Source: Zetaproteobacteria bacterium (lineage in GTDB: Bacteria > Pseudomonadota > Zetaproteobacteria > Mariprofundales > Mariprofundaceae). Taken from it: a DNA stretch of 33,802 nt. The first letter of the stretch is position 1, and each line of letters opens with the position of its first letter. The notes under the pieces are model-generated. The model did no database searches. It was not told where the DNA came from and saw only the letters and a list, made by a program, of their open reading frames with translations. The stretch lies in contig QIFG01000046.1 in NCBI GenBank assembly GCA_003228735.1, forward strand, positions 1 through 33,802, given 5' to 3'. The position numbers and the translations under genes are program-made. Below, one piece after another: positions 15,176 to 19,543 of the stretch.

Positions 15176-16996
15176 ATGCCCATTGATGTGTTCATGACGC
15201 AATTGTCGCCGACGATGACGGAGGGGAAGATTGTTCGCTGGCTGAAGAAAGAGGGCGACCAGCTTGAATCCGGCGAGATTATGGCCGAGATCGAGACCGA
15301 CAAGGCGACGATGGAGATGGAAGTAGTCGATGAGGGCGTGCTTCACAGGATTCTGTCGCCTAAGGGTTCAACGGTTCAGGTGGGCGCCGTGATTGCCGTG
15401 ATTGCCGAGGAGGGCGAAGGCGTGCCGGAAGATTACATGTCCGAACCTGCCATCATGGCTGAGCCGCCGGCGAAAGCCTCTGCGTCAGAGCCGGCCCCGC
15501 AGGAGATCGCACAGCCTGCTCCCGAGCCGGCCCAGACCGAGGCGGCCGATGAAGGTGAGCATGCGCTGAACCTGAAGCCTGCGGGCGTGTTCACGGCTGG
15601 CGATGCCGAATTCGATGTCGTTATCATTGGTGCCGGGCCGGGCGGTTATGTTGCGGCAATCCGCGCCGCCCAATTGGGGTTAAAAACGGCCTGTATCGAA
15701 TCCACGCACCTGGGCGGCATCTGCCTGAACTGGGGATGTATCCCGACCAAGGCGCTTTTGAGAACCGCCGAGGTCATCAATGTCATCAAGGGCCACGGCA
15801 AGGAACTGGGCATCGGCCTGTCCAGCCCGAAGCCCGATCTGGATGTGGCCATTGGACGATCGAGAAAAATTGTCGAGAAGCTCAGCAAGGGCATCGGTTT
15901 CCTGTTCAAGAAGAACAGGATCGAGCATATCGATGGCTATGCCCGTTTTGTGGCCGGCCCGAAGCTCGAAGTCGAGGCTGCGGATGGCTCAAAGCGTGAG
16001 ATCACGGCCCGGCATGTGATTGTTGCGACTGGCGCCCGCGCCCGCGCCTTCCCAGGCATGGAGGTCGATGGCGAGGTTGTTATCACCTACAAGAAGGCGC
16101 TGTCGATGGACTCACTGCCGAAGCGGCTGGTCGTCATCGGTTCCGGCGCAATCGGCATGGAGTTTGCCTACTTCTATAAAGCGATGGGCTCCGAGGTCAC
16201 CGTTCTGGAAGCCGCCGATCAGGCGCTTCCGGTTGAGGACCACGAGATTGCCAAGGTGGTCGAGCGCAGCTTCAAGAAGAACGGCATCAAGATTGTTACC
16301 GGGGCCATGGTTTCCTCCGCTAAAAACGTGAAGGGCAAGGCTGTGGTTGAGTATGAAGTCAAAGGGAAAAAGGAAACCATAGAGGGCGATGTGGCGCTCG
16401 TGGCTGTCGGCGTCGTCGGCAATACCGAGGATATCGGCCTGGAGCACACGCAGGCAAAGGTGGAGGCCAATGCCATCGAGGTGGACGATTATTACCGCAC
16501 CGATCAGACCGGCGTTTATGCAATCGGAGATGTTATCGGCGCGCCGGCTCTGGCGCATGTGGCCAGCCATGAAGGCATCGTCTGTGTCGAGGCCATTGCG
16601 GGGCAACAGCCGCACACGGTGGATTACGGCAACGTGCCGGGCTGCACCTACTGTCAGCCGCAGGTCGGCTCAACCGGCATGACCGAGAAGGCAGCCATTG
16701 AGGCAGGCCGCGAGATCAAGATCGGGCGCATGCCATATGCGCCGAACGGCAAGGCCATCGGCCTGGCTGAAACCGAGGGCATGGTGAAGACAATCTTTGA
16801 TGCCGAAACCGGCGAATTGCTCGGTGCGCACATCGTCGGCGCCGAGGCCACCGAGCTTATCGTGTCGCTTGGTCTGGCGAGCACATTTGAAACGACAGAA
16901 GCGGAATTGGCGCATCATATGTTCCCGCACCCAACCCTGTCCGAAATGATCCATGAGTCTGTGCTGGACTCTGAGGGGCGAGCAATTCATATCTAA
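15176..16996 (+). CDS. lpdA: Dihydrolipoyl dehydrogenase with N-terminal lipoyl domain (E3)
   Basis: 606 residues in three parts. Residues 1-79 are a lipoyl domain with the lipoylation site ETDKATME (Lys43). Residues about 80-143 form an Ala/Pro/Glu-rich flexible linker. The rest is a complete E3: FAD motif GAGPGG near 152, redox disulfide CLNWGC (Cys183 and Cys188), NAD motif GSGAIGMEFAYF near 325, and the C-terminal HMFPHPTLSE with the catalytic His-Glu pair. E3 reoxidises dihydrolipoamide of 2-oxo-acid dehydrogenase complexes using NAD+. The ATG at 15176 has GGAGAGG just upstream; an in-frame ATG at 15095 lacks one. No E1 or E2 gene is adjacent. Confidence 0.95.
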   Translation: MPIDVFMTQLSPTMTEGKIVRWLKKEGDQLESGEIMAEIETDKATMEMEVVDEGVLHRILSPKGSTVQVGAVIAVIAEEGEGVPEDYMSEPAIMAEPPAKASASEPAPQEIAQPAPEPAQTEAADEGEHALNLKPAGVFTAGDAEFDVVIIGAGPGGYVAAIRAAQLGLKTACIESTHLGGICLNWGCIPTKALLRTAEVINVIKGHGKELGIGLSSPKPDLDVAIGRSRKIVEKLSKGIGFLFKKNRIEHIDGYARFVAGPKLEVEAADGSKREITARHVIVATGARARAFPGMEVDGEVVITYKKALSMDSLPKRLVVIGSGAIGMEFAYFYKAMGSEVTVLEAADQALPVEDHEIAKVVERSFKKNGIKIVTGAMVSSAKNVKGKAVVEYEVKGKKETIEGDVALVAVGVVGNTEDIGLEHTQAKVEANAIEVDDYYRTDQTGVYAIGDVIGAPALAHVASHEGIVCVEAIAGQQPHTVDYGNVPGCTYCQPQVGSTGMTEKAAIEAGREIKIGRMPYAPNGKAIGLAETEGMVKTIFDAETGELLGAHIVGAEATELIVSLGLASTFETTEAELAHHMFPHPTLSEMIHESVLDSEGRAIHI

Positions 16997-17055
16997 AGGC
17001 CGGATTTGTGAACAGATTAAGAAGCTTGTACATAACATGGGATATTCCTTAGCCG

Positions 17056-17086
17056 CCTTCAATAGAATTGAATTTATGAAGGTTTT
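17056..17086 (+). terminator. Weak candidate terminator after lpdA
   Basis: CCTTCA (17056-17061) pairs with TGAAGG (17077-17082), followed by TTTT. The stem is only six pairs with a 15-base AT-rich loop, so termination here is uncertain. The remainder of 16997-17247 is AT-rich and I see no gene in it; a TATACT box at 17213-17218 could serve the next gene. Confidence 0.3.
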
Positions 17087-17247
17087 AACCAGTTTTTGTA
17101 TATCCAAAGTTCACTGATCTTGTGTTGCGATTGCTTTGAAGCCTGCTCCTGTCTAAATTGGGGATAGAAAATGAAGCGGGCGAATGAATACCCCGGCAAA
17201 TAGATAAGTGCGTATACTTAATAAGTTAGGGCGCGCAGGGATAATTT

Positions 17248-17736
17248 ATGACGGACGCTATTATCGGGGGGTTAGTTGGGGGTATCGTTTCTCCGCTTAT
17301 CTTGGCGGTATTGAAACACTTTGTCGTATGGCGCTCCGAAAAGCGATTGGAACTTAAAGGTAGAGTTTTTGATGAGGCAGTCTCGGCCTTAGCTAAGCGG
17401 GCTGTGGACGCTTTGGACCCTCACCTTCAAGCCAACAAACAAAGCGCCGGGGGTTTAGTTCGCGAAACAGAATACCGTTCTGAGACGTTAGAGCTTATAG
17501 AGCGATCGAGATCACAAGTGCGGGCGTTCTTTCAGTCCGAGGCTGCTGACCAATTTGATAAAGCAGCAAATTGCAAGCTTAGTTTAGATAACATTCCAAA
17601 TATTGAATTTGAAGCTGCAAGAACAGAAGCAATCTCGGCGCTGGCTTCTGAGTTGGGTGTGCAGCTTCCTGGTTGGGTTAGCGCCCTAACAATGCGCTTG
17701 AGAGGCGACGCCAAAAAGCGGCGCGCCTCAGCTTAA
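17248..17736 (+). CDS. Membrane-anchored protein of unknown function, 162 aa
   Basis: I do not recognise a family. The N terminus (MTDAIIGGLVGGIVSPLILA) is a glycine-rich hydrophobic stretch that could form one membrane helix. It is followed by a basic junction (KHFVVWRSEKRLELKGR) and a largely helical, charged soluble part of about 130 residues ending in RGDAKKRRAS. The layout suggests a cytoplasmic domain tethered to the membrane. The ribosome binding site is AGGGA six bases before the ATG. Base composition is AT-richer than the flanking housekeeping genes, which points to transfer. It precedes the nuclease gene by 58 bases on the same strand, so a shared transcript is possible. Confidence 0.7.
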   Translation: MTDAIIGGLVGGIVSPLILAVLKHFVVWRSEKRLELKGRVFDEAVSALAKRAVDALDPHLQANKQSAGGLVRETEYRSETLELIERSRSQVRAFFQSEAADQFDKAANCKLSLDNIPNIEFEAARTEAISALASELGVQLPGWVSALTMRLRGDAKKRRASA

Positions 17737-17797
17737 CTGTTCGGCAGTCACAGAAATGGAAAGATCATTAACTGTAAAAATCTCTAAGGAGTGAATG

Positions 17798-18676
17798 ATG
17801 GCAAACTATACAGTTGATCAGCTTTGTGATGATGGTCCACCATTTGCAATGGCAATGCTTTTGGAGTGTTTAAGGGCTAGAGAGTCTTTTGTAACGTACG
17901 GGGCCATCCGCGACGAATTAGAGTATCAACTTGGCATAGACACCATCTTCCCAACTCAAATTGGATTTGTGGCTGGTACATTGATGAACCAAATATTGGA
18001 GGTAGACCCAAAGGCACCTCTGATTAATGCTCTGATTACGCGCCCGGATGGCCTTCCGGGTAAAGGGGTAGGAGGCTACTTCGCTAAAAAATATAGGAAC
18101 AAACGCTATCGAGAATGGGATGATGTCTCGATAAATAAGAAAAGAGAATTAGTAGATAAGGAGCGTATAAAGATACTACGCTATGGAAATTGGGAAAGAC
18201 TCAATAAGAAACTATTTGGAACAACTGCACAGGCTAAATTACGCAAACCCAAGGGAAGCGAAGTAGACGGATTTTCTCCGAATGGAAAAAATTATGGCGG
18301 TCCAGCCGAAAGTGACGAACATAAAAAACTGAAGGGATGGGTGGCGGCGCACCCATATGAAGTCGGCCTTCGAAGATCATTCGGCAAAGGAGAGATAGAA
18401 GCATTATTGTTATCAGGAGATTCGGTGGATGTCCTTTTTTCAGATGGGAACGATTTTGTCACTGTTGAGGTTAAATCCTGTCGGTCAAATGACGAAGATT
18501 TTCGTCGAGGAATATATCAATGTGTGAAATATCGAAAAGTGAAGGAAGCAGAACATCTTCCCAATACTGTTAATGTCCGAGCAGTACTGGTAACTGAACG
18601 GGGGCTTAACTCTGATCTTAAGGCACGTGCCCGTCTGCTAAATGTTCGATTCAAATGTGTTTTTGTGAATAAGTAG
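17798..18676 (+). CDS. PD-(D/E)XK nuclease-domain protein, 292 aa, accessory
   Basis: The C-terminal half (numbering from the ATG at 17795) has a PD-(D/E)XK nuclease core. E175 sits in the helix DEHKKLKGWV, D212 in GDSVDVLF, E225-x-K227 in VTVEVKS, and Q242-x-x-x-Y246 in YQCVKY. The D-x12-E-x-K spacing plus QxxxY is the arrangement seen in NucS/EndoMS-like and related restriction-type nucleases. Residues about 1-95 include a possible winged-helix-like module (VTYGAIRDEL, then APLINALITRPDGLPGKG), and 100-160 are strongly basic. Both halves suggest DNA binding and cutting. Two adjacent ATGs exist; 17798 is better spaced from AAGGAG. No methylase gene is nearby. AT-rich codon use indicates transfer. 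The target is unknown. Confidence 0.8.
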   Translation: MANYTVDQLCDDGPPFAMAMLLECLRARESFVTYGAIRDELEYQLGIDTIFPTQIGFVAGTLMNQILEVDPKAPLINALITRPDGLPGKGVGGYFAKKYRNKRYREWDDVSINKKRELVDKERIKILRYGNWERLNKKLFGTTAQAKLRKPKGSEVDGFSPNGKNYGGPAESDEHKKLKGWVAAHPYEVGLRRSFGKGEIEALLLSGDSVDVLFSDGNDFVTVEVKSCRSNDEDFRRGIYQCVKYRKVKEAEHLPNTVNVRAVLVTERGLNSDLKARARLLNVRFKCVFVNK

Positions 18677-18716: not shown

Positions 18717-18971
18717 TCAGCGATAGGCATCCTTTCGGTGGGCAACGCGGACAATCAGGATGACCACCTGCTGTTCGTAAATTTCATAGATAACGCGGTA
18801 GTCGCCTGCGCGGATACGTCTGAGCCCTGACAACTCGCCTTTCAGGGATTTGCCGATATAGGGATTAGCTGGAAGCTGGTCGATGGCGGCCACAACTCTC
18901 CGGCGCTCCGGTTTGTTGATTAGCTTGAGTTCCTTGGCGGCGCTGGATTTAATCTGCAGCGAGAATGTCAT
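18717..18971 (-). CDS. RelE/ParE-family toxin
   Basis: 84 residues with the RelE/ParE-superfamily pattern: IKSSAAKELKLINKPERRRV at the N terminus, KSLKGELSGLRRIRAGDYR in the middle and a terminal RVAHRKDAYR. The RxGDYRVIYEI strand and the final H-R-x-x-x-Y are the RelE-like features associated with ribosome-dependent mRNA cleavage, so a RelE type is more likely than a gyrase-poisoning ParE. It starts inside the antitoxin gene (23-base overlap), which fits antitoxin-first translation coupling. Confidence 0.92.
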   Translation of the reverse strand: MTFSLQIKSSAAKELKLINKPERRRVVAAIDQLPANPYIGKSLKGELSGLRRIRAGDYRVIYEIYEQQVVILIVRVAHRKDAYR

Positions 18972-19170
18972 GCTTTGCCTTCTCCCAGTCCAGCACCTCG
19001 TCGGAAGGGTCGCGCAGCCGGTCGATGGCGATACTCAGATCATCGAAATCCTCAAGGTAGCGTTCGATGGACTTGCGGATGATATCCGCCCGTGAGCGGT
19101 GCAGAGCTTGAGCGGCATTATCGATGGCGGTAACCATCTCATCGGGAAGCCGGGCTGTGATCTGGGACAT
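18949..19170 (-). CDS. CopG/RHH-family antitoxin
   Basis: 73 residues. The N terminus (MSQITARLPDEMVTAIDNAA) is a ribbon-helix-helix DNA-binding domain: a short beta strand, then two helices including RSRADIIRKSIERYLE. The C-terminal acidic tail (DRLRDPSDEVLDWEKAKHD) would wrap the toxin. Such antitoxins neutralise the toxin and repress their own operon as dimers. GAGGTG lies about seven bases before the ATG, and the upstream palindromes are the likely operator. It is the first gene of the pair. Confidence 0.92.
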   Translation of the reverse strand: MSQITARLPDEMVTAIDNAAQALHRSRADIIRKSIERYLEDFDDLSIAIDRLRDPSDEVLDWEKAKHDILAAD

Positions 19171-19258: not shown

Positions 19259-19543
19259 ATGGACTATTTTTACAAGGCTTCTGGCCTCCCATGGAATAAA
19301 CTCAGGGACGTGACTATCTCCAGAAGACTTAAGTGGCGCTTGCTGCCTGCCCTGCTTCTCTTTGTTGTCCAGGGGGCAAATGCCGAAGAGGCAGGCTTGC
19401 CTCTATGGGAACTGGGTGTCGGCGTTGTGGACAACAGCCCGCTGGTGAAGAGCCGGACATATACTACGGTGGTCGGCGGTCTGGTCTGGACGCTGATGCG
19501 CTCGGAAAAATCCACGCGGGCCGAAAACGAAGAAGAGAACTAA
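19259..19543 (+). pseudogene. MipA/OmpV-family outer-membrane protein with internal deletion
   Basis: The 94-codon frame starts with a signal peptide (RRLKWRLLPALLLFVVQGANA, as two parts: RRLKWR then LLPALLLFVVQGANA) and the first strand of a MipA-type barrel (LPLWELGVGV). It jumps directly to what looks like the final segment of that family (DNSPLVKSRTYTTVVGGLVW). In full-length proteins these parts are separated by roughly 150-190 residues. The junction is near residue 56 (nt 19421-19430) and is in frame. The product could be exported but cannot form the barrel, so I treat it as a decayed gene. It converges on the Sel1-repeat gene 20 bases away. Confidence 0.65.

Follow-up and report, generated by a model that had tools for sequence, protein, structure and literature searches.

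A stand-alone PD-(D/E)XK nuclease of an unnamed, defence-associated family, predicted to act in restriction, in an AT-rich stretch downstream of lpdA

The window analyzed here, i.e. the whole stretch of 33,802 nucleotides, forms contig 11 in an assembly of 1.88 Mb, whose class is represented in the genome collection by only 78 genomes from three families. Downstream of lpdA it carries two genes, hereafter A and B, which are followed by a toxin-antitoxin pair and a short open reading frame (ORF):

Ending at 16996: lpdA, the upstream flank of A and B
17248-17736, forward strand: gene A, 162 aa, AT-rich, with foreign codon use, an orphan
17786-17791, forward strand: AAGGAG, the ribosome-binding site of B, 6 nt ahead of the ATG at 17798
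17798-18676, forward strand: gene B, predicted stand-alone PD-(D/E)XK nuclease of 292 aa, from an unnamed family (hereafter family X)
17798-18094, forward strand: N-terminal module of B, about 100 aa (TYG...PLINALI...LPGKG)
18287-18673, forward strand: predicted C-terminal PD-(D/E)XK core of B
Within the core: residues E172 (18308), H176, S207, D209 (18419), D212 (18428), E225-V-K227 (18467-18475), R238-G239 and Q242-C-x-K-Y246 (18518-18532)
18717-19170, reverse strand: ParE toxin and ribbon-helix-helix (RHH) antitoxin pair, the other flank of A and B
19259-19543: ORF of 94 aa, similar to a portion of a 272-aa ORF that lies shortly after lpdA in a relative (L064)

The reading frames of the two genes span 17248-17736 (162 aa) and 17795-18676 (293 aa); for the latter, the second ATG (17798) is the better start, as it lies 6 nt behind the AAGGAG site and matches the start of the nearest relative. 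The GC content across the A/B stretch is 0.44-0.45, compared to 0.55-0.60 in the surroundings, and the GC3 of both genes (A 0.46, B 0.355) falls below that of the neighboring genes (0.64-0.72). Codon adaptation to the neighbors is 0.452 for A and 0.454 for B, against 0.60-0.72 for 21 neighboring genes, hence both genes look like recent arrivals. Thus, ORFs, GC content and codon adaptation all agree with the initial annotation, which had placed two AT-rich genes between lpdA and a toxin-antitoxin pair. That pair was identified as ParE/RHH, but its value as a sign of a defence context was not borne out: its codon adaptation is host-like (ParE 0.66, RHH 0.69), which places it outside the AT-rich stretch of A and B, and the genome contains eight ParE-like loci including this one (one of the eight under the family cut-off), so that its nearness means little and its membership in the island was rejected.

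The junction downstream of lpdA is a variable spot, which differs among the eleven relatives examined and therefore offers no clean empty site for comparison. Searches for direct repeats, tRNA genes and Rfam RNAs revealed no useful marks of element ends at the island. The above-mentioned 272-aa ORF occupies the second position behind lpdA in L064, and a 33-aa stretch of it resembles the 94-aa ORF of the window at 45% identity. This likeness suggests that the 94-aa ORF is probably a truncated remnant of a gene once located nearer to lpdA, which would mark the edge of the variable junction.

In the protein encoded by gene A, residues 4-22 are hydrophobic (mean Kyte-Doolittle value 2.39) and form its one predicted membrane helix, near the N-terminus, and a single-sequence structure model, with low confidence (pLDDT 48), is all-helical; both the N-terminal hydrophobic stretch and, at the level of this model, the helical soluble part had been anticipated from the sequence. 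No ORF of this length appeared in 500 dinucleotide shuffles of the region 17001-17794. Searches of Pfam, NCBIfam, PHROGs, PADLOC, plasmids, phages and IMG/VR identified no relative of A, and in 399 sampled genomes nothing exceeded the chance level (best E-value about 0.0015 per genome). A weak match to DUF2852 (E-value 0.019) was dismissed. The absence of relatives is bounded by the collections searched, and relatives could exist in other metagenomes.

The sequence of B exhibits the PD-(D/E)XK signature, D...(D/E)xK, with E172 upstream and Q242..Y246 following it, and the complete set of core residues listed above is invariant in all 17 aligned sequences, which identifies the protein as a predicted PD-(D/E)XK nuclease. 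The initial annotation had tied its proposal to the conservation of a similar set among homologs; D212, E225-x-K227 and Q242xxxY246 stood, while E175 turned out to vary freely, the conserved acid being E172 instead. Comparison with the nearest relative (L001, 76% identity) yielded dN of 0.144 and dS of 1.305, i.e. dN/dS of about 0.11, with the differences distributed over the three codon positions as 46/33/132, which together indicate that the protein is under selection. An AlphaFold2 model of B built from two sequences has a fitting order of helices and strands; at a pLDDT of 34.5 it is unreliable and of no value as evidence, hence the fold assignment rests on the conservation of the motif and on a profile match to Shedu nucleases with a probability of 23%, described below. 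No significant family was identified for B in Pfam, NCBIfam, PHROGs or PADLOC. Weak matches to HEC-02B (E-value 0.013) and to Tox-REase-9 (best E-value 0.00072 in three relatives, absent from B) were dismissed.

The nearest relative of B resides on a contig of a metagenome-assembled genome labeled Omnitrophota; more distant ones were found on five plasmids (26-42% overall identity) and in around a dozen further genomes from the host's phylum. The DNA similarity between B and its nearest relative covers 17798-18676, exactly from the start codon to the stop codon, while the flanks are unrelated (in the relative, a PIN-domain gene lies upstream, and the other neighbor, encoding 339 aa, is unrelated too), which suggests that B moves as a single gene. 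The contig in question (JAGLQN010000319.1) is a 4.9-kb sequence binned as Candidatus Omnitrophota; being short, it may be misbinned, so its host is uncertain. One of the plasmids (L005, NZ_CP110863.1) is labeled Lactiplantibacillus plantarum, yet its genes are GC-rich and proteobacterial-looking (a ParB-like gene, a recombinase, the truncated X nuclease), and its label or assembly may be wrong. Neither the phage collection nor four IMG/VR scans, in which different family members served as queries, revealed any relative of B, and viral spread was therefore rejected as its route.

The front part of B behaves as a separate module, in agreement with the initial annotation, which had placed a distinct N-terminal region ahead of the nuclease core. 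It recurs fused to an HNH_2 nuclease (L028:2880-3671), whose HNH part scores 68.9 bits against NF045808 (phosphorothioated-DNA restriction), below the cut-off of 180, and on its own in proteins of about 120-150 aa (L090:3774-4133, L092:4116-4523, L093:3764-4219). Conversely, three family X members (L026, L088, L089) retain the nuclease core behind a different front part. Such swapping is what would be expected of a recognition or control module. The stand-alone module proteins share the motif SDGLPGQGWW and come from one family of the host's phylum. The profile of the N-terminal region showed no significant match in Pfam or PDB; its winged-helix-like character is suggested by visual inspection, and an MGMT/ATL-like identity, also proposed by eye, received no support from these profile searches.

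Eighteen other loci with family X genes were compared. In eight of them (L004, L023, L024, L026, L086, L087, L088, L089) the X gene is the middle one of an operon Res-X-methyltransferase (hereafter Res-X-Mod), in which the reading frames overlap or nearly touch. Res is a helicase (NCBIfam NF046055; Pfam ResIII and RE_endonuc) about 930-1020 aa long, which in L024 is interrupted by a frameshift or stop, and Mod is a methyltransferase (Pfam N6_N4_Mtase) about 940-1070 aa long. A UvrD/PcrA-like helicase comes next in the majority of these operons. Of these names, NF046055 and those from Pfam were checked on the L004 copies, where Res scores 1178 bits against the BPTD_3080 family, and UvrD/PcrA on the copy from L087; the remaining ones were assigned by sequence likeness. 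In five loci (L023:2247-4322, L026:2433-4502, L086:12146-14203, L088:12053-14173, L089:11357-13429) the UvrD/PcrA-like helicase appears, by eye, to open with some 90 aa similar to RelE/ParE toxins; scanned against protein families, the L087 copy matched helicase families only.

Outside these operons, X adjoins a type ISP enzyme together with a gene whose AIPR match falls slightly short of the Pfam cut-off (L022), two Abi genes (L006) and a TIR-like protein recognized by eye (L005), and lies near a Vsr-like gene and a C5-methylase-like gene, read by eye (L125); in L004 a Shedu gene lies near X. No recognized restriction partner adjoins X in L001, L003, L007 and L025, and neither Res nor Mod lies next to B, whose neighbors are lpdA, A and the ParE/RHH pair. 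As genes of family X lie within restriction operons or next to genes for restriction and abortive infection, and many of them are solitary, B belongs to a defence-associated family in which the solitary state is common, and the proposal of a lone nuclease without a methylase in a defence-type context is supported by the loci of its homologs. This evidence shows an association with defence genes, not an activity.

Altogether, the analyses establish B as an intact member of family X that is maintained under selection and retains all catalytic residues; its N-terminal module is exchangeable, and its relatives are embedded among restriction and abortive-infection genes or adjoin them. Its most likely role, in our opinion, is that of a stand-alone, Shedu-like restriction nuclease. 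We regard it as somewhat better than an even bet that B was acquired horizontally and is a one-gene restriction nuclease, Shedu-like in action, and that A is a separate cargo. In such a mechanism the N-terminal module would recognize invading DNA by some feature, be it a particular sequence, a base modification or a DNA end, after which the C-terminal domain would nick or cut that DNA with Mg2+ or Mn2+; neither a cognate methylase nor gene A would be required. Elsewhere, within the Res-X-Mod operon, X is probably an extra nuclease or specificity subunit; since Res has its own endonuclease domain, a specificity or regulatory role might be considered there.

Could B be a modification-dependent (type IV) enzyme, whose N-terminal module reads a modified base while the nuclease cuts nearby, as the winged-helix fusions do for N6-methyladenine? 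The solitary state of B without a methylase and the occurrence of the same module on an HNH nuclease (L028) are consistent with such a function, and winged-helix + HNH enzymes of 224-283 aa have been tested as 6mA-dependent (PMC11037411). On the other hand, the winged-helix call was made by eye on a region whose profile matches nothing significantly in Pfam or PDB, and at 8 of the 18 loci an N6/N4-type methylase is encoded in the same operon as X, a setting in which a nuclease that required this methylation would turn against its own cell. We therefore consider the type IV function unlikely.

More improbable still is that B is an orphaned leftover subunit of a Res-X-Mod system with no function of its own. 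Eight homologs are indeed the middle gene of such an operon and neither of the partner genes adjoins B, but B and its 76% relative are both solitary, have the full catalytic set in common and show the low dN/dS described above; in the tree they group together (support 99/97) outside the main Res-X-Mod group, and many other relatives are solitary as well.

The initial annotation had united A and B into a two-gene defence module, and in this version the membrane-anchored helical A would sense infection or tether B at the envelope; the genes do lie on one strand, 58-61 nt apart with no terminator-like site between them, their codon adaptation is similar, and nuclease defences located at the membrane have precedents in Zorya and SNIPE (PMC12904381), but we give this explanation the least credence of all, as B has its own strong ribosome-binding site, the whole-gene GC contents are unequal (A 0.497, B 0.429), and no relative of A was found in plasmids, phages, IMG/VR viral contigs or about 400 sampled genomes, nor beside X at any of the 18 loci, including that of the 76% relative (the sequence L123 ends close to its X gene). 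Recurrence of the pair in other genomes, on which that proposal depended, was thus found at none of these loci and the pairing is not supported; A is most likely a separate cargo unrelated to B, perhaps acquired in the same region, and the membrane partner a probable false lead that can be removed.

If B indeed acts alone, an unnamed nuclease family joins the single-gene restriction systems and provides a natural case of one nuclease core used both solo and within a methylase-bearing restriction operon. The swaps of the N-terminal part would then allow a comparison of family members to test how such nucleases choose foreign DNA. As a broader and distinctly tentative proposal, which we find plausible and yet on balance doubtful, family X may be an uncharacterized, widespread family of restriction nucleases with a Shedu-like layout, separate from Shedu, that serves both as a one-gene anti-phage system, as here, and as an interchangeable third subunit of the BPTD_3080 Res/Mod operons, with the N-terminal module setting the DNA target.

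Among the known systems, Mrr-type type IV enzymes (Mrr_cat, PF04471) resemble B in the succession of an N-terminal part and a C-terminal PD-(D/E)XK domain. However, B has no match to Mrr_cat, and neither has any other protein of the window's genome; the profile score of the X core against Mrr (23.5) is at the level of the best shuffled profile. The winged-helix fusion type IV endonucleases (HhiV4I, wH-HNH; PMC11037411) are likewise small, one-protein enzymes with a DNA-reading front and an exchangeable nuclease, a combination that in L028 takes the form of the B-type front plus HNH, but the nuclease of B is predicted to be PD-(D/E)XK rather than HNH, and its front has no detectable winged-helix homology. 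In the BPTD_3080-type Res/N6_N4_Mtase operons (NF046055) X is the middle gene at 8 of 18 loci, while B in the window lacks both Res and Mod.

The layout of family X recalls Shedu (SduA; PF14082, SduA_C/DUF4263). Alignment of the X-core profile with five SduA proteins (hhalign) gave a score of 30.6 (P-value 0.0009) with a probability of only 23%; none of 300 column-shuffled profiles reached this score (maximum 23.5), and the controls scored 23.5 (Mrr), 14.9 (Res endonuclease) and 10.4 (reversed profile). The aligned columns span the W/NP helix, the D and the ExK motif. The SduA_C model matches no member of family X and nothing in the window's genome; together with the probability of 23% this argues for the wording that B works like Shedu, not that it is Shedu. 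The N-terminal modules of X also differ from those of Shedu, and X occurs within Res-X-Mod operons too, while we have seen none such reported for Shedu. In a relative from the host's family, both neighbors of a Shedu gene (L097:790-1980) encode proteins that, judged by eye, contain a hydrophobic stretch. Shedu combines one nuclease core with diverse N-terminal regulators (PMC12137116, PMC12904381), and B shares with it the single-gene organization, the predicted C-terminal PD-(D/E)XK core and the solitary state without a methylase, while family X as a whole shares with it the location in defence islands and the placement of the core behind variable N-terminal modules, as in the three members with other fronts.
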